This document shows, piece by piece, positions 16,897-62,757 of a stretch of 64,000 nt of DNA (the first letter of the stretch is position 1; each line of letters opens with the position of its first letter). The notes under the pieces are model-generated. The model worked only from the letters and a program-made list of their open reading frames with translations, was not told the DNA's origin and did no database searches. The stretch covers positions 63,669,957 to 63,733,956 of the forward strand of contig NC_080428.1 of assembly GCF_029873635.1 (NCBI RefSeq), given 5' to 3'. Source of the stretch: Malania oleifera (lineage: Eukaryota > Streptophyta > Magnoliopsida > Santalales > Ximeniaceae). The translations under genes and the position numbers were made by a program.

Positions 16897-18770
16897 ATAC
16901 CAAAAAACAAAACAAAACAACAAACCATAAGCCCCACTAGGTGGGATTGGCTACATGAATCCTTTTCCCCCAATTCATTTGATTGGGAGTGTTTTCCTCT
17001 ATTAGATTAAGGGCTATTAAATCCTTCCTTACTCCCTCATTCCATGTTATTTTAGATATACCCCTATCGCTTTTTTATGTTAGAAATAATAACTAACTTC
17101 TCCTTACAAGTATTTTATTAGGTCTGTGTTTCAAATGTCCAAACCATTTAAGTCACGCATCTCTTATCTTATTATCAACATGTGTTATACCTAAATTATT
17201 GTGTTTATACTCATTTCTTACTTTATCTTTTAATGTTAAACCACTCAACCACCTTAACACTTGCCTTTCAGCAACTGTAACTTTTTGTACAAGTTGTTGC
17301 TTAATTATTCAACATTCTAATTCATAAGGCATAATTGACCTTATAGCCATCTTATAAATTCCTTTTAATTTTAAGGGTATTTTATGATCACACAATACAC
17401 CCGACACACTCCTCCATTCCACCCAACCTGTTTAATTCTATGTACTACATTTTCTTCAATTTCTTTTTCAACTTGCATAATAGATCCAAGATATCTAAAT
17501 TTATTAGTGTTATTAATCTCTTGATTATCAAGTTTAATCTTCTCTCTGTTGCTACTCCTTACATTATTAAAATTACATTTTATATATTCTATCTTATTTT
17601 TACTTATTCTAAACCCTTTAGACTCTAATGTGGCTCTCCGAAATTTTAGCTTAAATTCCACTCCGCTCCTACCATCACTCATCAACACAATATCATTTAC
17701 AAACAACGTACACCAAGAGATCTTATTTTGGATATTCCTAGTAGCTTCATCAATCATTAAAGCAAAAAGGTAAGGACTCAAAATAGAACCTTGATGTACA
17801 CCTATTGTGATAGGAAAATCTCCAAATTCTCTTCTTACAATCCTAACGCTAGTCATTGCTCTATCATACATATCCTTAATGACCTCAACATATCTATTGC
17901 AAACGCCTTTCTTTTTTTAAGACCCACCAAAGGACTTCTTTAGGTACTTTATCATATGCTTTCTCTGTCAATAAAAATCATATGCAAATTCCTATTCTTT
18001 TTTTCTAAACTTTTTCATTGAACTTCTTAAAAAATAAATAGTTTCTGTTGTTGATCTCCTAAGCATAAAACCAAATTGATTATCTGAAATCTTCGTTTCT
18101 AGTCTTACTATATGCTCAATTACCCTTTCTCATAATTTTATCGTATGACTCATAATTTTAATTCCAGGATACTTATTACAATTTTGAATTTCGCCTTTGT
18201 TTTTATACAAAGGTACTAACATATTTTTCCTCTATTCTTCTGACTTTTTTTTTTTTTTGGTTTTTATACTAGTGTTGAATAGATTAGTTTACCAAATGAT
18301 TCCTTTATTCTCTAAACATTTCCAAACTTCAATTTGGTCCTATAGATTTCTCACTTTTCATCTTTTTCTAATGTCATTTTAACTTCAAGAATTCTAATTT
18401 TGCAAATAAATCTCCTATTTTTAATCTTCTCCACATTTGTCACTTCCAAGTTCAATCTCTCATTTTGATTTTCATTAAACAACTTATCAAAGTATCTTTG
18501 CCACTTTTCATTTATATCTTCTTCTTTAATCAAGACATTATCATTCTCGTTCTTTACACATTTTACATCACTTAAATCTTTACATTTTCTTTCTCTAACT
18601 CTAACAAGTTTATAAATGTCTCTTTCTCCTTCTTTTGTATCTAGTTTAGCATATAAAGTATCATAAGCTCTATGTTTAGCTTCACTAATAGTCTTTTTAA
18701 TATTTTTTTCAGTTGTGTTTTGGAAAAGTAATGTTTTTTTTGCATAAAATTTTGCATCATCTTTTAAGAC
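16897..18770 (-). mobile_element. RTE-type LINE, degenerate
   Basis: On the - strand 17871-17371 reads TSVRIVRREFGDFPITIGVH then QGSILSPYLFALMIDE, with a WCTLFVNDIVLM segment where RTE elements have their catalytic ADD/VND box. Upstream (18533-18351 and about 18550-18700) reads YKLVRVRERK-like and INEKWQRYFDKLFNENQNE, also RTE-specific. The 3' end at 16897-16925 is a (TTTTG/TTG)n tail after a GGGGCTTATGGTTTGTTG-like stretch, typical of plant RTE. The reading frame is broken in several places. Confidence 0.8.
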
Positions 18771-18934: not shown

Positions 18935-19865
18935 TGGATTAATTTGCTTTGAAAGAATTTGCAACCTCTTTGAAATCAAGGGTTTTCCTTTCAAACAAAT
19001 CCAAATCATATTTCCTTATTGGTATGGCTAATCCAAAATCGACACGATTGGTTTCAATTGTTAAGGAAGTAACGGGATCCTCATGGGATTGATTTCCCCA
19101 CATAGGTCTCACGAAATCTCCTGAATTCATTCCCTTGATTTCAAAATTGGAAAATTTTCGTACTACTTTTTTAGGAAATTTCCTATTGTCAAGGAACTAA
19201 TGGGGCTCTTGTGGGATTAGTTTTCCCACATAGATCCCATGAAATCCTCCGAATTCGTTCCCTTGATTTCAAAATTATAAATTTTGGCACCATTTTTTTA
19301 ATAAATTTCCTATTGTTGACTAAGTAATGGGACCCTCCTAGGATTAATTTTCCCGCATAGGTCCCACAAAATCCCCCAAATTCTTTTCCCTAATTTCGAA
19401 ATTGAAAATTTTGGTACCATTTTTAAGAAATTTTATATTGTCAAGGAAGTAATGGGGCCCTCGTAAGATTAATTTCCCACGCATAGGTCCTACGAAATCC
19501 CCCGAATTCATTCCCCTAGTTTTAAAATTGAAAATTTTGGTACCACTTTTTTTTAAGTAGTTTCCTATTGTTGAGGAAGTAATGGGGCCCGGTGGGATTA
19601 ATTTCCCCACATGGGTCCTAAAAATCCCTCGAATTCATTCCTCTAATTTCAAAATTAAAAAATATGGTACCATTTTTTAAGAAGTTTCCTATTGTCGATG
19701 AAGTAATGAGACTCCGTTGGGATTGATTTCCCTGCATATGGATCCCCACGAAATCCTCCAAACTCATTCCTGAGTCCTTTTTGAAATAAAAAAAGAGTAT
19801 CGTTTCTAAAAAATTTGTCCTTGAGGAAGTAATGGAAACCCTATGGAATTTTTTTCCCTGCATGG
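18935..19865. repeat. Tandem array, ~127-bp unit, about seven copies
   Basis: Each unit carries TTTCAAAATTGAAAATTTTGG, then TTTCCTATTGTCAAGGAAGT, then AATGGGGCCCTCGTGGGATT, then a CCCACATAGGTCCCACGAAA block and CCCCGAATTCATTCCC. Copies start near 19139, 19268, 19396, 19524, 19648 and 19775, with partial copies on each side. Unit spacing is about 124-130 bp. The - strand open frames over it are just translations of the repeat. It may be the tandem segment of a large Ogre/Tat-type retroelement. Confidence 0.85.
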
Positions 19866-20433
19866 GCCCTATGGATCAATTTTTGCCTCATTGGTGAAAA
19901 CAAATCTTTGTTTTGTTTCCCCAAGATTGGATTTCATCCCAAAATGCTCTTTTGACTTTGAAAGCCTTTTGGATTCTCCCAATTGGGTTTTCTCAAATTA
20001 TTTCAAAAAAATGAGGTTATCCCCTTTCCTTTAAAATAAAATAAAAATAAAAATAAAAATAAAAGTAAAAACCCAATGTCATTTCCTAATTTTCAAAGAT
20101 CTATTTTAGGGATGGCCACCCTGACTTCAAAATCCCGGATTTCTCTCACCTTTTAAAATTTATTGTTTCTCTTTTCAAATATTAACCCTTATGGGGGGAA
20201 TTCCTTTCAAAATAACCAAACTCAACTTTTTCTTGAACTACATCAGCTTGATCCCAGACATCAGGTACGTCGGGTATGTAGGTAGCTTACCCCCCAAAAG
20301 GGTTAGGTTTAGGCCAAATTTTTTCTTTCCCTTTTTTTTGAAATCATTTTTTTTTAGGACAAGTAATGGAGCTTCCATGAGGTTCAGTCCTCCATATAGA
20401 TTTCACCAAATGTCAACTTTTTGGGATACACAC
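19866..20433. other. Possible Ogre/Tat-type retroelement remnant, left of the nested element
   Basis: The sequence reads GACATCAGGTACGTCGGGTA then TGTAGGTAGCTTACCCCCC, similar to non-coding segments of large plant Ogre-like elements as I recall them. It resumes after the nested insertion at 23189 with a GGTGGCGACTATG segment. No coding frame is convincing. Family assignment is tentative. Confidence 0.35.
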
Positions 20434-20867
20434 TGATATACCCCAAATATATCACTTACCATAAATCCAAAGGAGACTAGAGTCCTGCATTGATGAGGGA
20501 AATTACCACCTAAGTCAACTGCTCAGGCAGAGCAATTGACGTCAGCTCCATGATGACTAGAGCAATCTACGCGAACGTTATAAAAACCGAAGCGATTCAC
20601 GTTTGCGCCATAATTCGCTAATAAATGGCACATCACCCTTGGGTCAAACTCCATCACTATAAATGGGGATTCAGAGAAGAGGCTAAGGTATCTCATTCTA
20701 AACTCTACTTTACTGTTGCATAAAAAACCTCTCAAGTCAATCCCTGACTTAGGCATCAGAGTGATCCCCCGGAGTACACCCCGGGTCCTCCAAGCCTTGC
20801 TTATTTATCTCTTTTCAGGTGGTCGTGATCAGGGATCGTGAAGGTCGTTCAATTTTTGGCTGCAACA
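20434..20867 (+). repeat. 5' LTR of the non-autonomous Tat-type element
   Basis: It opens TGATATACCCCAAATATATC and ends GGCTGCAACA. CACTATAAATGG near 20654 is a likely TATA region. It pairs with 22755-23188 at equal length. Confidence 0.9.
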
Positions 20868-20869
20868 GT

Positions 20870-20887
20870 TGGCGCCGTCTGTGGGAA
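20870..20887 (+). other. Primer-binding site of the Tat type
   Basis: TGGCGCCGTCTGTGGGAA two bases after the LTR end. The same 18-mer follows the LTR of the large Tat element at 41347. Confidence 0.85.
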
Positions 20888-20949
20888 CTTCTTGAGAGGT
20901 TTTCTCTTTCAATCCTTGATCATGACTACATCTAATAATTGAAGGTCAA

Positions 20950-21370
20950 TGCATTGGCTCAATTAAGATTGTCCGAAATACCACCGTCCGACACCTAGAC
21001 GTACTCGATGCCGTCTGATCCATCACCAATTGGGACCCTACCTAGTGCAAACTCTTCATTCACGGAATTGGATGGGACACTACCATCAAGAACCTCCACA
21101 ATCTCTTCTCCACCTATGGTGACCTCGAAGAAGCCATCGTGATACTTGGCAAGGTCACCGGGAAAAGTAAAGGCTACGGGTTTATTACGTTCAAGCTCAT
21201 CAATGACGCTTTACTTGCATTGAAAAAGTCAAGTAATAAAATTAACAGACGAATAACCGGGACCCAGCTTGCGATATTAGGAAATTCTAGATCTAATACG
21301 AATCCGACTACAATTGATGTTTCTATGCGCAAGATTTATGTAGCCAACGTGCCTATTCTCAAGGTACGAT
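20950..21370 (+). pseudogene. Captured fragment of a UBA2-type RRM protein gene
   Basis: Reading 21048 onward gives KLFIHGIGWDTT (RNP2-type opening), NLFSTYGDLEEAIVILGKVT, then GKSKGYGFITFK (RNP1), then KKINRR-like and TQLAILGNS, and finally SMRKIYVANVPIL, the start of a second RRM. The order and the QLA-G linker match plant UBP1-associated protein 2 (UBA2) family RNA-binding proteins. UBA2 proteins are nuclear and bind U-rich RNA with two RRMs; only the first RRM and the edge of the second remain. The fragment sits between the primer-binding site and an antisense fragment inside the LTR element, so it is a transduplicated copy, not a host locus. It could still be transcribed from the LTR. 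Confidence 0.75.
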
Positions 21371-21754
21371 TTTTTCTCCATCATACAATAATAATTCTTA
21401 AAAAAAAAAAAACAAATAGATGTCATAGTTTCAACCCTTGAAAAGCTCCATCTTAATGGCTAATAATAATTAATAGGATGTTCAAGTTATTTAATTATTT
21501 GAACAATGACCTATGCACCAAATGCATAGTGGGGTCATGATAGCTGCACTGCAAGTCAAATAAACAAAGCCAAACTTTGAAATTCCAATGGGTTGGCCGA
21601 ATGCACCATGGGTTTGGCAATAATGACTTTTGCACATTTATGTGCGTTGAACAGTGCTCTGAATAGTGAATTTGAAATTACTATTGGGAATTTGAGTTGA
21701 AATTACAACGCACATTGAAATTGCACAATTGTAGCAACTACAATCGGCAAAACC

Positions 21755-22175
21755 TCAAACAGAAAAATCAAGCTCCTTAGTGACATTCAATCGAGCACCT
21801 GGAACCCAATCAGCTGAACAATCCACACCATAATCAAAACAAACAGTAACAAAATCACCATCATCAATGGTAGATATCTCGCAGATCTCAATCTCAAACT
21901 TCAATCTACCATTGCACTCACAACCCCATCCAACATGGGACTCACGAATCAACTGGGATACAATTGAATAATCTGAGTTTATAGACCCCACATATGACAC
22001 AGACAACACAAAAATAGTCTGCGAAATCTATAACATTGTATGCTTACTTGCAGTTCCCTTTGCCATAAATGATCGAACACTTGGTGCATACACATCCAAA
22101 CCCTTTGAAACAAATCCATCTCGAACCGATTAAGAATCCTAACTGATATTGAAAATACCATAACTCACATCTTTA
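21755..22175 (-). pseudogene. Second gene-like fragment captured in antisense, unidentified
   Basis: The - strand frame at 22009-21755 has ordinary protein-like composition, with SQLIRESHVGWGCECNGRLK and then EICEISTIDDGDFVTVCFDY. Just upstream, about 22130-22060 reads RDGFVSKGLDVYAPSVRSFM in another frame. A GT...AG-like pair (GTAAGC near 22050, TTTCGCAG near 22020) lies between them, which hints at a shrunken intron and so at capture from genomic DNA or partly spliced RNA. I do not recognise the protein. It runs opposite to the RRM fragment. Confidence 0.5.
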
Positions 22176-22261
22176 ACCCCAATGAAATCAAAACTGCAAA
22201 AACGTGTTGAATTGAACAACCATCCCAGCATCATAAATTATCAAAATGTTACTGAAGATAT

Positions 22262-22665
22262 AACCCAAAAAATGAGCACAGCTCATTAGGTAAGGAAGAA
22301 TCGGCCCAACTGATAAGCAACGCTCGTGAGGCCAGAAGACTGCCCAAAAAATGAGCACGACTCATTAGGCAAAGAAGAATCAGCCCAACTGATGAGCAAC
22401 GCTTGTGAGGCTAGAAGACTGCCCAAAAAATGAGCACGACTCATTAGGCAAAGAAGAATCGGCCCAACTGACGAGCAACGCTCGTGAGGCCAGAAGACTG
22501 CCCAAAAATTGAGGACAACTCATTAGGCAAAGAAGAATCGGCCCAACTGACGAGCAACGCTCCTGAGGCCTAAAAACAGCCCAAAATATGAGCACAACTC
22601 ATTAGGCCATAAATGACAAAGAAGAAGAGCACGACTCATGAAACCACAAGCAGCCCAAAATGCCT
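22262..22665. repeat. ~79-bp tandem array inside the Tat-type element
   Basis: The unit runs AAAATGAGCACGACTCATTA, GGCAAAGAAGAATCGGCCCA, ACTGATGAGCAACGCTCGTG, AGGCCAGAAGACTGCCC. Copies begin near 22266, 22345, 22425, 22504 and 22582, with a partial copy near 22653. Two short palindromes, GAGCACGACTC and GAGCAACGCTC, recur in each unit. Confidence 0.9.
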
Positions 22666-22754
22666 CAAGAAGAGTTGCTCGATTAAAAAAAAAAAATACA
22701 ACTTTCAAACTTTGGAAGTCAGCTTCAAAAATTCGAAATTGAAGGGGGGACAAC

Positions 22755-23188
22755 TGATATACCCCAAATATATCACTTACCATAAATCCAAAGGAGACTA
22801 GAGTCCTGCATTGATGAGGGAAATTACCACCTAAGTCAACTGCTCAGGCAGAGCAATTGACGTCAGCTCCATGATGACTAGAGCAATCTACGCCAACGTT
22901 ATAAAAACCGGAGCGATTCACGTTTGCGCCATAATTCGCTAATAAATGGCACATCACCCTTGGGTCAAACTCCATCACTATAAATGGGGATTCAGAGAAG
23001 AGGCTAAGGTATCTCATTCTAAACTCTACTTTACTGTTGCATAAAAAACCTTTCAAGTCAATCCCTGACTTAGGCATCGGAGTGATCCCCCGGAGTACAC
23101 CCCAGTTCCTCCAAGCCTTGCTTATTTATCTCTTTTCAGGTGGTCGTGATCAGGGATCGTGAAGGTCGTTCAATTTTTGGCTGCAACA
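22755..23188 (+). repeat. 3' LTR of the non-autonomous Tat-type element
   Basis: Equal in length to the 5' LTR and nearly identical to it. It is preceded by a G-rich polypurine tract at about 22739-22750 and followed by the CACAC target duplication. Confidence 0.9.
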
Positions 23189-23731
23189 CACACATATAAT
23201 TTCGGTAACCATTCCTCAAAAGGATGCCGATTGGCGTGCCAAAAGGCTAATCATCATTGAGGTGGTTAGTTGATCACCTTTCCTATACATAAATCTACTC
23301 CCAAACTCAAAAATATGGTTTTCGCAAACCTCTTTTTTTAGGGTCTTTATTTTCCTAAGGTGGCGACTATGTATCTTGTGACTCACCCTTTTTCATTGAA
23401 GCTTTTTCCTTCTCATTTGGAGGCCCCTTTTCCCTCTTGTTGGCACCCCGGACCGAGTCCGGCGTCGACAATTTGTATGAGTGCGAGTGAATGTATGTGT
23501 GTCTTCTCATATGAATGAATATGTGAGTAGTGTGTGTATGCATGGGTTATAGATGTGCAAGTTAGTTTGCATATATGTGTAAGTTCACATGTATATGCTT
23601 GATGTGAATGCATGAATCTGTAGGTATATATGTGTGAGGGCGAGTATGTATGAGGGTAGGTCAGTATGTGTAAATTTATGCATGTCGGAGGGTATGTATA
23701 TGCATGTGCATACATATGTATATGTTTTGAT
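23189..23731. other. Resumed host repeat plus TG/TATG-rich low-complexity DNA
   Basis: 23189-23470 continues the interrupted older repeat (AAGGTGGCGACTATGTATCT, then GGCACCCCGGACCGAGTCC). 23471-23731 is rich in GTATGTGTG and TATATGTGTG words, resembling 16200-16510. No gene seen. Confidence 0.4.
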
Positions 23732-36643: not shown

Positions 36644-36997
36644 TGATATGCCCCAAACATATCAGCCTTAAAAACAGTCCATCTATCATAAAAAGCATTA
36701 AGGAGCAGCCACAATTAGGGCCATTATCGCTCAAGGGTAGCTGTTATGGAGGAGTCAACCCCATGCACACCCAAGCGGTCCGCACCTACACCATCGACAG
36801 TTGTCCTCGACTCCATAAAGGCCAGAGCGATTTGCGTCCGCACCACAACTAGCCAATAAATGACCATACGCCCCCGGGTAAACTTCAGCCACTATAAGAA
36901 GTGAGGCGAAGAAAAGGCCAAGGTAAGTCATTCAACACTCACTCTTACTGTTGCATTTAACCTCTTTGAAGCATTCACCTTACTTAGGCATCGGAGT

Positions 36998-39900
36998 TGT
37001 TGACTTTTTGAGTCTAATCCCTAGTTTTGATAATGACAAACTGTAAGGTTCTTATGTGTGTATCCTGTGTTTAAGCAGACTTGATATGTTAGCGCACACA
37101 TAAGGAGACTGAAAATGGAAGTCAGAAGAAACTCGAAAGACATGTACATCAGCTGGCGTATTCCAAGGAAGTCACAAGAGTAAAGAAGATTGAAGACATT
37201 TAAATTTCGATTGTATTGCATTTAGTCTTTATATTTGGTATGTAATAGTAAATAGGAAATGATTTGTAATAATTAATGCATTGCATGCATGATATGGATA
37301 AAAGCTCAGTGATGACCATAGACTGACCATAGGGGCCCACAAAACCTTAGGGATTTTGGTCGACCGACATCAAATCTTTGGGGTTAATTCTCAAATGTCT
37401 TAAATTGACCTTAGGACCTACAAATTTGCATGAAAAAGTTCCCTATTGCAGTAAAAATAAACATCATATGAATAGGATTAATATATAAAGGGATTAGGAC
37501 TGATATGCATAAAAAATGCATGTTTGGACGATCGAACCTGAATGCTTGAAAAGCATTCGGTTGACCGAACTAGGAAGTGGTCAACAGTTTGACCATGGCT
37601 CGGTCGACCGAACCAAACCAGTTCAATTATGCTGGTCAACTGAACTATTCTGAGGTAAACATTTTGACCCTTTGGTCAACCGACCCAAAATGTGTTGCAA
37701 CGCTATGGTCGACCGAAGTTCCTCGGGAGATGTCCTAACTACCTAGTCAACCGAACTTCATAGTTCAAAGTGTCTCGGTGGACCGAACCTCGCTAAATTG
37801 GAAAATCACTTTCAAATCTTCTGAGACGGTCGACCAACAACTTAGTTCATTTTTCTCCACGGTCAATCGAACTTGGACACTTGGTCAACTGAACCTTAAG
37901 TTTGGTTAACCGGTGCTCTCGGGTTGGCGAGAATTACTAAGGTTAAAACACAGTTAAAATTTTATTAACCTCATTTAAACTTTTTTAAAAATACTCAGCA
38001 TGTCCCTAACTGTAACAACTTGCTATTTAAATGGGGTTTTTTTTTTTTTTATACTATGACATTTAACATGCTCTGATACCATAATAGATTAAACCCAATT
38101 ATCAACCTAAGCAGCGAGAAGCAGAAATCAAATAAATATAACCATATATAATTATATACAATACCAGAGTGCTAAATTGTTTTACAAAATATACATATAA
38201 AACTATTCCCCAGAAATATCCTCAACTGGCTGGGGTTATACAAAATACTCTCAAAAATGCTCACTCTAATATCAGGACAATATTGAGGCCCCTCTATCTG
38301 CGAGCTTGATCTGCTCGCCTACCTAGGTCACCTGAAAGATGTTAAAGTAATTGGAATGAGCCAACGCTCAGTAAGACCGAATATGCTATTGCTAGTGTGT
38401 GGCAGATGAGTTACAATATTATGAAAATATGTTTCTATAAAATCATGTATAACTGGATCTGTAAATACAGTACAAGTAATAGAAACCATCACCATTTCCA
38501 TGTTGCTTAACATATCAGTATTTTAGGTTACTATTTAAAATACTTCTAATGTACGTAAGTATATTCTCTATCTCTGTAAATCTGTATATACATAATAATA
38601 ACTTAAAATTTCCCTGTGGATAACTGTGTGTCATGATTTAACCCCTCATGACAGGGTTGTGCGGCCCATAGGCGGGATCTACCCTGGCTGGCCAACTAGG
38701 GTAAACCACTATACTCCCTCAGTCTGATCTGGCCTTCTCAACCCATATCTGATGGGGAGCCTGTCCACATTAGGGCATTATACGATCGACCTACTATCAC
38801 GTATTATCTGAATAGGTGGTTGCACTCTGTAAACTGTATGTAGCTACGGTACCGTGCTCTGTTGTATGGTCCAACAGGGTCTGATACTATATAATATATT
38901 TATATATACAACTAACTGTTTTACCATGATTCTGTAATAACTGTATTAACCATGACACTGTAATAAGTAACTGTATCATCTGTATTTTTGAACTGAATTG
39001 TAATCTGTAAGTCATGGTACTGAAAACTGTATAATCATGGTACTGTAAACTGTATAATCATGGTACTGAAAATTGTATAATCATGGTATTCTGTAATTAC
39101 TATAAAACATAACCACTGGCTATATATTCTAAAAATACTGTAAAATATGTTTCTTTACTATACTCATATTCTCAAGCCACATAGAAATTTTAAACATATT
39201 ATATATAAATGATAAACTGTATAAATTTCTAACATGAATAATCATTTGATAAAAACGTATAGTTTATACTGAAACATAGTGAAACTGTCTAGCATAACAT
39301 ATTTCCCTTACCTGACTCCTACTAAAATCCCCTACTGAGACGGGTCCTACACCCTCAGGGTTTCCTACTTAACACCCTGAAAATAATTTTTGCAAGAACA
39401 AAATGTCACTATTTCTACGTCTACAATATTTTCTACAACTGCTAGAAATCCAAATTCCAAATAAAAGACTTTACCCTGGATTTGGGATGAATTCCAACTT
39501 CGTCCCACTGACGATTCGCTCTGGCAAACTTGCAAAGAACTCCACTAGTAACGTCGTGGTGGCCTCAGATCGTCGATTCGGCGACTGACGGGGCCGAAAT
39601 GGAAGGAAGAAAAGGGAGGAGCTATAGGGGTAGAGAGAGAAAGAGAGACTACGGCAAATTTTTGCGATTAAAATCAGTTTAGGGCTATTTATACTGCGAG
39701 CTTCGTCGACGAGCCACATTATCTCGTCAATGAGTCCTTAAGTAATTTCGTCGACAAACCTTACCCTTCGTCGAAGAAATTCAGAGTAGCCCAAATTCTT
39801 CTCTCGGTATCTTCTCAGCAAAGAGTCGTAGCTTCGTCTACGAGGTCCCCTTATGCACTCGTCGACAAACTACCCTTATGCACTCGTCGACGAACTCCCT

Positions 39901-41226
39901 GTGTTCGTCGATGAGGCCCTGTGGGAAAATCTTTCAGGTTATTCCATCCAAAATGCAATGTCATCGACGAACGTGAAGTCGGCTGCCTCCTTCTGTTACT
40001 GTTTCCATTTCTCTCCGTCGTTATTATTTAAATACTATTATAATTCGGGTCACTACACTAACGGTTATAATTTTTCCAACTTCTATATATAGCCATCATT
40101 TGCAAAGATTAGCAAGAGATTAGGGTTTATGACTAAGAAAAATCCTTAGAAAATATTTTTGGCCAAAATCCTCATACTCCTATAATCCTTCAAATCTATT
40201 GCTAAAGTTCTACCTCTTGTGTTCATCTATCTACTTAACTTGAAAGGTAGTATTTCTTATATCTCTTTCATAGGTTATTCTCTCCCTTGTTTCAAATTGT
40301 TTCATGTATTGATTTTTGGAGAGATACCTAAGGTTTTTCCCATTATGTTTCACTCATAAATATTTGATTGGGAAAAACCCTTGAGTGGCTGGGAGCCTTG
40401 CATCTTCATTGCAAGTGTTCATAAGCTTGATTTGTGCTTTGATGAAAATCTTTTGAGCAAGCTTAAAAGCCCTATTATCCACTATGCTTATTACTTGAGA
40501 AATATTATTTAAGATATGTGTTAGGGTTATTAAGAGCTTTTGATTAATCACATCACAAGCATATTGGCTTGACATCAAAAGCCTCACTCTCATACACATA
40601 CATTGATATACATTTGATTGAGAGTTAACACTTAAGTTAACAAAATCTCACTTGAGCTTAATATCCTATCATCTGTGAGTGCATTATTTAGTAGAGCATA
40701 TTGGTACATATTTGCTTAGTGTAAGAAACACTTTATTTGCATGCAAATTTCTATATCATTTGTATTCCATGCGTGGGCCTGAAGAGAGAGACTAGCCCGG
40801 TCAAATAGTCCCGGACTGGCTTAGACCCGATTAGGAAAGTTAAGTGTGCCATCCTGGTAAAGCATGTTGGTTGAGGTCAACCCTTTTAATTGACCTGGTT
40901 GTAACTAGTGTCGCTCCATCCTTTAAGTGAGCTTATAGTGGTAATCCTTGTGTTGGAAAGCCAAGTCAAGGATGTAGGCACAGTTGGCCAAACCCCGATA
41001 ACATTTCGTGCGTGTTCTTTACATTTTTGCAATTTACATTTCTGTACGTATATGTTATAGTGTGAATGAAGCGATGATTTAATTTACGTTCCTTATATCT
41101 ATCTGCACATTTGGGATTGTATAGAAAGACCCTAGGTTGCCAAATCATATTGACATCTAACTTGACCTAAGAGAAAAGTTTAAAATTCCAATTCACCAGC
41201 CTCTTAGGAATACACCAAGGCTAACA
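36998..41226 (+). mobile_element. Solo LTR (family D), inserted in the Tat LTR
   Basis: It opens TGTTGACTTTTTGAGTCTAA and ends CAAGGCTAACA, with a perfect target duplication GGAGT (36993-36997, 41227-41231). Without the nested solo LTR at 38011-40057 it is about 2,177 bp. No gag or pol is visible. About 37350-37925 is studded with CGGTCGACCGAAC words. Lineage is not assigned. Orientation is not independently fixed; the TG...CA ends read the same way round. Confidence 0.85.
38011..40057 (-). mobile_element. Solo LTR of family A, nested in the family D solo LTR
   Basis: Read on the - strand it opens TGTAGTGACCCGAATTATAA and ends CAAGTTGTTACA, 2,047 bp, with a perfect target duplication CTAAC (38006-38010, 40058-40062). 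It aligns along its length with 8853-10852. 39000-39085 holds a short tandem repeat (AACTGTATAATCATGGTACT, three copies), and 39700-39980 holds the TCGTCGACGA cluster. It looks whole as a solo LTR. Confidence 0.9.
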
Positions 41227-41459
41227 GGAGTGATCCCTCAAAGTACACCCCGGGTCCTCCAAGCCTTTTTGCTTTTGCCCTTTTTTAGGTCAATGGAGGT
41301 CTGAGAGCAGTCTTGCTAGTCATTGCCAATTTTATCTCACAATAGTTGGCGCCGTCTGTGGGAATTGCTTTAAAGAGGCACTCGTCTTGCGCTTGACCTC
41401 CGGCTTTTAAAAAATGACAACCACACACAGCTCTAGCTCCGGAACTGCCACTTAAAAAA

Positions 41460-59744: not shown

Positions 59745-60730
59745 TAATGAAAGAAGGCAGGACCAATCCCTTCTACAGGGAAGCCTCTCTAAGATCTACA
59801 GAGCCTCCATTCACCAAAAAAGTGATAGAGGTCCTGCTACCCAGCAAATTCAAAATGCCGACCTTTGAAAGGTACAAGGTTTGTCCAACCCGATCGATCA
59901 TCTGGACACCTTCAGGGTGTTGATGCAATTGCAAGGCGCACCTGATGTCATCATGTGCCAAGCTTTTACAGCAACTCTAAAAGGTAGTGCCAGGGATTGG
60001 TACCAAACCCTACAACCTGAATCAATCGGTTCCTTCTCAGTGATGGAGCAGCTGTTCACCGGCCACTTCCTCAGTATTCGGAGGATCGTCAAAACATTAG
60101 CCCATCTAATGAGCATGGTTTAGGGAGAAAGGGAGACACTAAAAAAGTTCATGCACCATTTCAACACTACGACCCTAGAGATCCGCAACCTAGATATAGG
60201 GGTGGCTTTAGAGGCTCTGACCACGGCCCTCCAGCCTGGAAATTTCCTATATTCACTGGGGAAGAAGCTACCGACTGATATGGGTGAACTGATGGCCAGA
60301 GCACAGAAGTACATCAACTTGGAAGAAATTATGGACACCAGGGGAAATCGAATCGAGTTGAAAAGGAAAGGTGGTAGCCGAGAGAATAGCAAACCTTCCA
60401 AACTCGTGAAGAGACAGGAGACCACCGCGCTGCACACTAGCTCTAAGATGAGAGGGAAACCCAATAGGTTCCCCACCTATACACTACTAAATGCACCACA
60501 GATTGACGTGTTGATGCATATAAGAAAGAAGGAATATGTCTCGTGGCCCAAACCTATGCGAACCACCTCATATAAACGGAACATGTCCAAGTTCTATCAA
60601 TTCCATAAGGATCACGAGCACGATACAGAAGAATGTATTCAGTTGAAGAACCAAATTGAAGCCTTGATAAAAAAAGGGATACTTGTCAAGATTCATAAAG
60701 AAGGGAGATCGACAAGGGGAAACTCGTAAG
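59745..60730 (+). mobile_element. gag region of the Tat element
   Basis: 59881-60123 reads NPIDHLDTFRVLMQLQGAPD and GSARDWYQTLQPESIGSFS, the retrotransposon gag capsid core of the Tat lineage. 60151-60729 continues with MARAQKYINLEEIMDTRG and FHKDHEHDTEECIQLKNQIE, the conserved gag end. The earlier part of gag lies at 50195-50508 (MEDMFNLLLQQKSEEGH region), before chromovirus 2. Confidence 0.8.
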
Positions 60731-61700
60731 TAGAAGAGGCCGAATGGGGACGAGAAGGAGGAACAAATCATAGGAGAAATCGTGGTGATCTTTGGAGGGT
60801 CCGCTAGTGGCGGAGACAGCGGAGGTGCTCGCAAAAGATATGCAAAATAGGTACTCTCAACAGAGAAAAGGGAATGAAGCGGCAAAAGGAAAAAAAAAAA
60901 AAAAAAAGATGATGTTATCGTATTTGATAGTGAAGATGAAGAAGGAGTGCGACAACCATATGACAATGCTCTAGTAGTCTCCCTGCTGGTGGCAACTTAC
61001 AAAGTGAGGCATGTGTTGATAGATAATGGGAGCTTAGCCAACATTATGTTCTAGTCGGTGCTCGAGGGGATTAAGATCAGTAGGGAATGACTCAAGCCAA
61101 ATCTCCACCCCCCTGGTCGGGTTCGGAGGAGATGCAGTACATCCCGTGAAAACTATTACACTCCTGGTAACAATGGTGACAGCCCCATAGAAAATCACTT
61201 CGTTAACGGATTTCCTGGTGGTCGATCGGCCATCAGTGTACAATATCATATTAGGCTCCCATTGCTCAATGCCGCTCAAGCCGTAACATCCACGTATCAT
61301 CTCAAGATGAAATTCCCTGCTCTACACGGGACAGGGATGGTTAAGGGAGATAAAGCAATGGCTTGGAATTGCTACATAATGGCTCTGAAAGGTAAGACGG
61401 AAATAAGAGAGACCTTAACTGTAGAATACCTGGAGGTGAGGGGAGAATACCCTCAAATTAGCACGTTGGATGAAGACCTCACATGCGTACCTATAAATGG
61501 CGATTAGGAGAGGTGCGTGCAGATCGGGAGCCACATGCCTAACGCTTTGAGAGCATAACTAAGTGAGCTACTAAGTGAGTTCGTAGATGTGTTCGCTTAG
61601 TGGGCCAAAGATATGCCGAGTATTGACCCTGCAATTATGGAGCACAGGTTGCAGGTAGACCCCCAACCACAAGCCCGTAAAGTAGAAGAAGAGGAGCTTT
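60731..61700 (+). mobile_element. Linker and protease region of the Tat element
   Basis: About 60930-61260 shows protease-type words (VLIDNGS-like near 61015-61035, then RPSVYNIILG-like near 61225-61255). 61262-61507 reads LNAAQAVTSTYHLKMKFPAL, the usual segment between protease and reverse transcriptase in Tat elements. A 20-bp A run sits near 60888-60907. Confidence 0.65.
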
Positions 61701-61703
61701 GGG

Positions 61704-62757
61704 ATGGAGGGAATCAAAGTAATAGATGAAGAAGCGACGAAGCTAGTGCAAGCCAAATTCGTCAAAGAGATCCACTATCCAGAGTGGTTAAGCAACGTAG
61801 TTTTAGTAAAGAAACCGAACGGGAAGTGGCGGATGTGTATTGATTTCACAGACTTGAATAAAGCATGTTCAAAAGACAACTTTCCTCTTCCTCAAGTCGA
61901 TCAACTGGTGGATTCGACCTCTATACATAAACTCCTAAGTTTTATGGATGCCTACTCAGGATACAATCAAATCCCAATGCGTCGAGCAGACAAGGAGAAA
62001 ATATCTTTCATCACTGAGAGGGGGCTCTATTGCTACCGAGTAATGCCCTTCAGGTTAACGAACGTGGGAGTGACATATCAAAGGCTGGTGAACAGGATAT
62101 TTAATGATCAGCTAGGAAGAACGATGGAGGCCTATGTAGACAACATGCTAGTGAAAAGCCTAAAAGCATGGGAGCATTGCAAGGATCTGAGGGAGACATT
62201 CGAACTATTGCGCAGGTACCAAATGAAACTAAATCCCACAAAGTACTTCTTTGGCGTCTTTGCAAGGAAGTTTCTCGGTTTCATGGTGATGCACAGAGGG
62301 ATAGAGGCCAACCCTGACAAAATAAGGGCGCTGCTGAAGATGGAGGCCCCACGAACGAAGAAGGAGATCCAAATTTTGACAGAAAGAATGACCTCTCTCA
62401 GCAGATTTGTCTCTTGTTTGGGAGACAAGGGTTTGCCTTTCTTTCGGGCATTAAGAAAGAAAGGAGGTTTTGAATGGGGGGAGGAGCAAAGTAAAGCCTT
62501 TGAACAGCTCAAGCAGTAGCTTGGCTCCCCTCGTTACTAACAAAGGCGAAGGCAGGAGAGGACCTATACCTATACATAGCTTTGAATCCACATGCAGCCA
62601 GCTCGGTCTTAGTCCAAGAGGAGGGAAGGTAGCACAAACTCATTTATTACACCAGCAAGGTGTTGAGCAGAGTTGAGAAAAATTACAGTACAGCAGAAAA
62701 AGCAACCTTCTCCATCATTTGTGTCATACAGAAGCTGAGACCCTACTTTCAGGCACA
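61704..62757 (+). mobile_element. Reverse transcriptase and start of RNase H of the Tat element
   Basis: The 271-residue frame at 61704-62519 reads EWLSNVVLVKKPNGKWRMCI, then DFTDLNKACSKDNFPLPQVD, LLSFMDAYSGYNQI, then MPFRLTNVGVTYQRLVNRIF, and a KYFFGVFARKFLGFMV thumb segment, all diagnostic of the Tat/Retand group. The following sequence reads toward RNase H (LYLYIALNPHAASSVLVQEE-like) and stops being recognisable at about 62757. It is the longest surviving coding stretch of any element in the window. Confidence 0.85.

Follow-up and report, generated by a model that had tools for sequence, protein, structure and literature searches.

The 64,000-nucleotide stretch of the Malania oleifera genome analysed here (NC_080428.1, positions 63,669,957 to 63,733,956; hereafter the window) holds, at 20434-23188, a 2.75-kb element bounded by long terminal repeats (LTRs). 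We regard this element, with a probability of roughly 0.84, as a recent copy of a large, old, and dispersed family of non-autonomous Tat-type LTR retrotransposons that carries a piece of a UBA2-like gene. A sequence-only reading of the window had proposed a young element that had captured fragments of two genes in opposite orientations; of this interpretation, capture and non-autonomy stand, whereas a young and one-off capture does not, as the payload is family-wide; the second gene is unsupported, no host parent of the second piece having been found among the candidates scored. The insertion is young, and its payload is not.

The family became apparent in searches of the 1.49-Gb assembly (510 contigs), which score the best candidates only, so that all copy numbers are lower bounds. 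A pattern spanning the LTR end and the primer binding site (PBS; up to 3 mismatches) gave 232 genome matches, 101 forward and 131 reverse, and its reversed control gave none. The further copies with the same LTRs and payload for which the sequence-only reading had proposed a search are thus present, as 88 of the 100 junctions listed carry the payload: at 67, a match to the RNA recognition motif (RRM) segment and/or to the minus-strand frame lies on the expected side, and for 21 of the remaining 33, the fetched loci or subsequent searches showed that they are carriers as well. The RRM segment returned 350 first-look candidates, and all 40 that were scored cover 494-495 of 495 bp at 93-100% identity; the middle segment returned 379, with 40 scored at 94-100% identity, and a protein search with an older copy as the query gave 516 (150 scored). 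Dispersed copies share one layout, as expected of a non-autonomous family, with the check for gag-pol against Pfam covering the window copy only. Matching target site duplications (TSDs) were found in six of the nine LTR pairs examined (the window copy, C3, C5, C10, L042, and L068), and the LTR pairs of the C3, C5, and C10 copies show 4, 8, and 6 differences per 434 bp, respectively. The 79-bp tandem array ranges from 3 to 12 unit matches across 29 loci, among which L031 is the window copy itself and L004 and L033 represent a single copy. Since the payload is a regular part of this large family, whose members diverge to about 78% identity relative to the window copy, a recent single-copy capture is ruled out.

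The host origin of the RRM segment is equally clear. UBA2-like genes were found in the M. oleifera genome by a protein search whose query was an RRM2 sequence, a part that has no counterpart in the element, and the closest of them is L072 (C1:130163702-130166944), which has an intact 460-aa open frame with two RRM_1 stretches. Window positions 20966-21353 align with L072 positions 1139-1526 at 85% identity over 388 bp without a gap, and the similarity breaks off abruptly in mid coding exon. By comparison, the paralogue L073 matches the element at 76% over 204 bp, and no exact 19-mer is common to the element and L073, L075, or L076. The Pfam family RRM_1 matches the plus-strand frame 21046-21438 (E 8.9e-12), of which the part beyond 21353 is not gene-derived. 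Judged from these alignments, the RRM segment is a genuine host-gene capture with L072 as its parent, and, as in Bs1-like gene capture, this host gene persists outside the element. The expected parent locus was thus recovered for the RRM segment, and for the minus-strand piece no host parent appeared among the scored candidates. Because the captured piece lies within one uninterrupted open frame of L072, intron loss is uninformative as to whether the capture was mediated by RNA.

All the hallmarks of an LTR retrotransposon are present in the window copy (Table 1), namely paired TG...CA LTRs, a short TSD, a primer site, and a purine tract. The LTR pair, the perfect CACAC duplication, and the 79-bp array described in the sequence-only reading were all confirmed, as was its primer site, TGGCGCCGTCTGTGGGAA, which we take to be Tat-type. 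Gag and pol are likewise missing from what was tested: the longest stop-to-stop frame within the element measures 131 aa, and none of five frames of the window copy has a Pfam match to gag or pol, which bears out its non-autonomy. The two LTRs differ at 6 positions in 434 bp (1.38%), in line with the young insertion proposed earlier. At assumed substitution rates of 0.7-1.3e-8 per site per year, which are not specific to Malania, this difference corresponds to an insertion age of roughly 0.5-1 million years.

Table 1. Features of the element and its flanks, in window coordinates
Feature	Position	Strand	Basis
5' TSD copy CACAC, 5 bp	20429..20433		sequence
5' LTR, 434 bp, TGATAT...GCAACA	20434..20867	+	LTR comparison
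Primer binding site TGGCGCCGTCTGTGGGAA	20870..20887	+	LTR-end and PBS pattern search
Captured UBA2-like exon piece (end of N-terminal region, RRM1, first RRM2 residues)	20966..21353	+	alignment to L072
Middle segment, common to the family, holding the minus-strand open frame	21354..22263		copy comparison
Minus-strand open frame, 90 aa stop to stop	21755..22027	-	open-frame list
79-bp tandem array, 4.4 units, 91% matches	22264..22607		repeat search
Polypurine tract GAAGGGGGGA, adjoining the 3' LTR	22741..22750	+	sequence
3' LTR, 434 bp	22755..23188	+	LTR comparison
3' TSD copy CACAC	23189..23193		sequence

Next to the element, the window holds a 127-bp tandem array at 19057-19770 (5.6 copies, 78% matches), about 0.7 kb upstream, and a minus-strand reverse transcriptase frame at 17371-17916 (RVT_1, E 8.4e-13), which is presumably LINE-like. 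Elsewhere in the genome, two unusual arrangements of family copies were observed. At C11:16637969-16646290, minus-frame matches recur every ~2.4-2.5 kb with RRM matches between them, which suggests a head-to-tail array of elements. L045 and L047 contain the same shortened internal piece joined to LTR fragments, one of them adjoining an inverted LTR piece, and are perhaps a second mobile derivative.

Whether the RRM piece still encodes protein was assessed in 41 distinct copies, for which an alignment over more than 330 of 384 parent bases was required of each fetched locus. Loci with a split or partial RRM (e.g. L067, L069, and L071) are excluded, as are the relic L077, six duplicates, and L001 and L031, which duplicate the window copy; four members (L017, L019, L028, and L030) are gapped relative to the parent, and their codons were read in the parent's register. 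An in-frame stop occurs within the 128 compared codons in 39 of the 41, and two stops are widely shared, at codon 16 (31 copies) and codon 25 (25 copies), where the parent has CGA and CAG. No copy has an AUG-initiated frame across the RRM core in a scan in the frame of the first codon. A translated RRM protein was rejected for the 41 copies in view of these shared stops and of the lack of an AUG frame over the core. With shared changes counted once per copy, substitutions relative to the parent are chiefly G>A (1045) and C>T (656), compared with 126 A>G and 188 T>C. Outside CpG, variable columns number 30/84, 34/108, and 38/89 at the three codon positions (0.36, 0.31, and 0.43), a near-even distribution that we read as no clear coding constraint. 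The RRM segment would then be a passenger without a protein product, eroded by cytosine deamination.

Several observations weigh against this interpretation of family and payload. The payload status was read at 88 of the 100 listed primer-site loci; a matching TSD was looked for and found absent at L069, L070, and L071, three of the nine LTR pairs examined. The available portion of one account defines the Tat/Retand lineage by position in the reverse transcriptase tree and by an additional RNase H domain (PMC6317226); because the element has no reverse transcriptase, its lineage here rests on LTR ends, primer site, and layout. None of the 140 scored polymerases, the best of 42,577 candidates, was tied to the family LTRs, and no LTR was found in the locus of one older gene piece, L074. 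As to the passenger state of the payload, two of the 41 copies lack a stop in the 128 codons, 26 of the 41 have none inside codons 26-127, and the ratio of nonsynonymous to synonymous substitution rates (dN/dS) is below 1, with a median of 0.35 against the parent (47 loci, including 6 duplicates) and 0.555 between copies (a ratio of means). Weak constraint on the RRM piece is possible; we attribute the low dN/dS to a CpG position bias because of the codon-position shares of variable columns outside CpG.

For the minus-strand open frame in the middle segment, the second captured gene of the sequence-only reading was not borne out. The window frame has no Pfam match at E up to 1, and five related frames yielded sub-threshold matches only; a KA1 domain was dropped, its single match (E 0.048) lying below the curated cut-off. 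Protein searches recognised no host parent among the 150 scored of 469 candidates and 150 scored of 642, and the scored matches, whose loci were not inspected one by one, look like repeats. With no host source recognised among these candidates, the idea of two captured genes is unsupported. A locus at C2:20999876-21105810 was considered as well, in which three related copies match an extra stretch of the old elements at 78-80%, and it is a possible host source of that stretch. It was rejected as the parent of the minus-strand frame: it matches a part lost from the window copy except for 29 bp, the edge of the similarity does not resemble a GT splice donor, and 6.5 kb of sequence contained nothing that convincingly matches the minus-strand frame.

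A tentative alternative, which we hold to be unlikely without dismissing it, is that the frame descends from the additional antisense frame typical of Retand and Grande elements rather than from a captured gene. Its place and orientation and the tandem array that follows are as in Retand elements, where antisense frames and arrays are frequent, and its scored matches resemble repeats; in the available part of a Retand survey, such arrays stand ahead of the 3' LTR in about half of the elements (PMC11963269), a position that the 79-bp array of the present family shares. An antisense frame is there, but neither the window frame nor the five related frames match Transposase_28 (PF04195), and the segment looks inserted, since it occupies the position within the captured sequence at which RRM2 would be expected.

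It is also conceivable, if rather unlikely, that the family acts as a small-RNA reservoir, whereby transcripts of the copies would give rise to 21-24-nt RNAs, some of them matching the parent mRNA perfectly, and so reduce or methylate the parent. Provided that copies are transcribed and silenced, such perfectly matching small RNAs would be expected, since exact matches between the window copy and the coding sequence of the parent occur at 26 positions for 21-mers (between 20984 and 21353) and at 20 positions for 24-mers, whereas three further UBA2-like genes that were tested show none. Furthermore, at least one exact 21-mer is common to the parent and 39 of the 41 copies, and a 24-mer to 30 of the 41. 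The parent itself speaks for little effect: its frame is intact, and the captured exon part is not CpG-depleted (CpG observed/expected 1.37 in the parent, compared with 1.21 for the paralogue and 1.07 for the element). CpG is scarce instead in the downstream portion of the gene that was not captured, and this holds for both parent and paralogue, so that the captured part bears no mark of its own of long-term methylation. The idea has precedents, in that captured fragments as reservoirs of small interfering RNAs against donor genes, together with the conflict expected when such a donor matters to the host, are described in the available text of PMC13317346, and an involvement of small RNAs in genes captured by LTR elements has been suggested for rice and sorghum, according to the accessible part of PMC3726574.

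That the payload is instead a regular part of an autonomous Tat element, of which the family would be a deletion derivative, appears improbable. Tat-like polymerases are abundant in the genome, with several frames above 1000 aa among those scored, and some lie near the RRM piece. In C9:77305529-77312109, an RRM piece is followed after 6.3 kb by a Tat-like polymerase frame of 940 aa in the same orientation, and at C10:39264521 another polymerase lies 15.7 kb downstream of an RRM piece, again on the same strand, both judged from match positions only; on C5, a polymerase 6.6 kb downstream is on the opposite strand. Against 170 RRM-piece sites, the 140 scored polymerases give just these few neighbours, 3 pairs within 20 kb, and at C9 a minus-frame match (77311101-77311379) sits between RRM and polymerase, which makes a separate neighbouring element likelier there than an autonomous layout. 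Three loci in which RRM and tail are 8.8-11.7 kb apart also looked like candidates; they were ruled out as autonomous members because the 2-kb stretches taken from their middles are other insertions, two with a polymerase that we take to be chromovirus-like and one with a repeat that also occurs in L066. An autonomous member carrying the payload was looked for, and none was shown among the 88 of 100 listed junctions and the 140 polymerases covered.

Two further features of the window were considered with regard to a mobilising partner. A second LTR element, at about 36644-41380, resembles the present one in the start of its LTR and in its primer site, which lies at 41347; some 4 kb appear to interrupt its 5' LTR, and its LTR pieces are 72-74% like the LTRs of the 20434-23188 element. 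An RVT_1 frame at 61686-62519, to which several frames without stops in other parts of the genome are ~80% similar, is presumably Tat-like and may or may not belong to this element. A frame at 60124-60729 that we take to be gag-like has no Pfam match.

The proposal that the RRM piece encodes, or until recently encoded, a protein of use to the element, in the manner of additional frames in other plant LTR elements, is extremely improbable: a frame that is gapless against the parent in 37 of the 41 copies, the stop-free stretch and low dN/dS already mentioned, and a 130-aa open frame at the RRM piece of the older copy L064 stand against stops just ahead of the RRM in most copies, the absence of an AUG frame over the core in all 41, and near-even codon-position variation outside CpG.

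Under our preferred interpretation, a dispersed non-autonomous family with a captured exon piece, older relics allow the history of the payload to be arranged in steps. L077 (C4:26708434-26711631) is the relic of an older LTR element whose LTR is ~70% like that of the window element; its UBA2 piece spans parent positions 1022-1797 at 86.6%, from near the start codon through the N-terminal part and RRM1 to RRM2, with its 5' part duplicated in tandem. L074 carries a gene piece from inside RRM1 through RRM2 (parent 1312-1804, 82%). Behind the gene piece, L077 and L074 both have a tail that is also present in L078 (C4:95573200-95583000; 82.5% for the L077 tail), in which a few tens of gene bases past RRM2 are still readable. 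No RRM2 match and no family LTR were detected in L078 itself, and the middle segment with its minus-strand frame is present. L064, 78% identical to the window copy, contains the RRM piece, the middle segment, and the extra stretch, its tail being a search match just past the edge of the locus. In L078 and L064, the middle segment stands in the place of RRM2.

From these relics, a family ancestor without protein genes, or having lost them, would have taken up a UBA2-like mRNA or exon piece directly behind its primer site; a long gene piece of the L077 kind would then have had its RRM2 replaced by the middle segment, and loss of the extra stretch would have led to the young short form. We infer this order, from long piece through RRM2 replacement to loss of the extra stretch, as the simplest one that fits the few relics; it rests on L077, L078, and L064, since L074 yielded no LTR. 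Template switching during reverse transcription is a likely route for both the capture and the RRM2 replacement and, as the available text of PMC13317346 notes, is known for plant LTR elements. Copies would be mobilised by an autonomous Tat element, whose gag-pol proteins would recognise the LTR, the primer site, and the purine tract.

Capture of host sequence by an LTR retrotransposon is a known kind of event, and what stands out here is the size of the family and the readability of the steps. Like Retand, Grande, and RIRE2, the family has what we take to be a Tat-type primer site, an array before the 3' LTR, and an antisense frame in the 3' part; unlike them, it has no gag-pol that was found and no Transposase_28 match, and a host gene piece lies directly behind the primer site. 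Maize Bs1 and other gene-carrying LTR elements similarly hold host exon pieces in sense direction, but transduced genes are described, in the accessible part of PMC7264820, at one or few copies, whereas the present family has 232 junctions and a captured piece that predates its subfamilies. Terminal-repeat retrotransposons in miniature (TRIMs) with host gene pieces, such as soybean GmaRetroS15, resemble it in being short and non-autonomous, in carrying exon-only pieces, in their 5-bp TSDs, and in amplification after capture; as far as the available sections of that account go (PMC4717578), they measure 1.2-1.4 kb, compared with 2.75 kb, 434-bp LTRs, and a 3' tandem array here, where only one host gene is shown. 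A survey of maize B73 lists 425 intact LTR elements that contain gene fragments, tracing them to at least 189 captures, and, in its available portion, none that combines fragments of two or more standard nuclear genes (PMC2774510), which parallels the lack of support for a second gene in our case. A literature search covering the titles and abstract openings that it listed found no case of an RRM gene captured by an LTR element or of UBA2 associated with a retrotransposon, which is not proof of absence.

As to why the family lasted, the UBA2-like piece might have been kept as a shield, in that full silencing of the copies would hit an important RNA-binding-protein gene and hence be selected against. 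We consider this highly doubtful; were it true, the family would have persisted and spread because plants that fully silence its copies are disfavoured. More broadly, the family provides a readable series of steps, from a long-piece relic through older copies with RRM2 replaced to young short copies, beside an intact parent gene. Two questions thereby become testable within one genome: by what steps LTR elements acquire and rearrange exons of their host, and whether silencing of numerous exon copies harms the gene from which they came.

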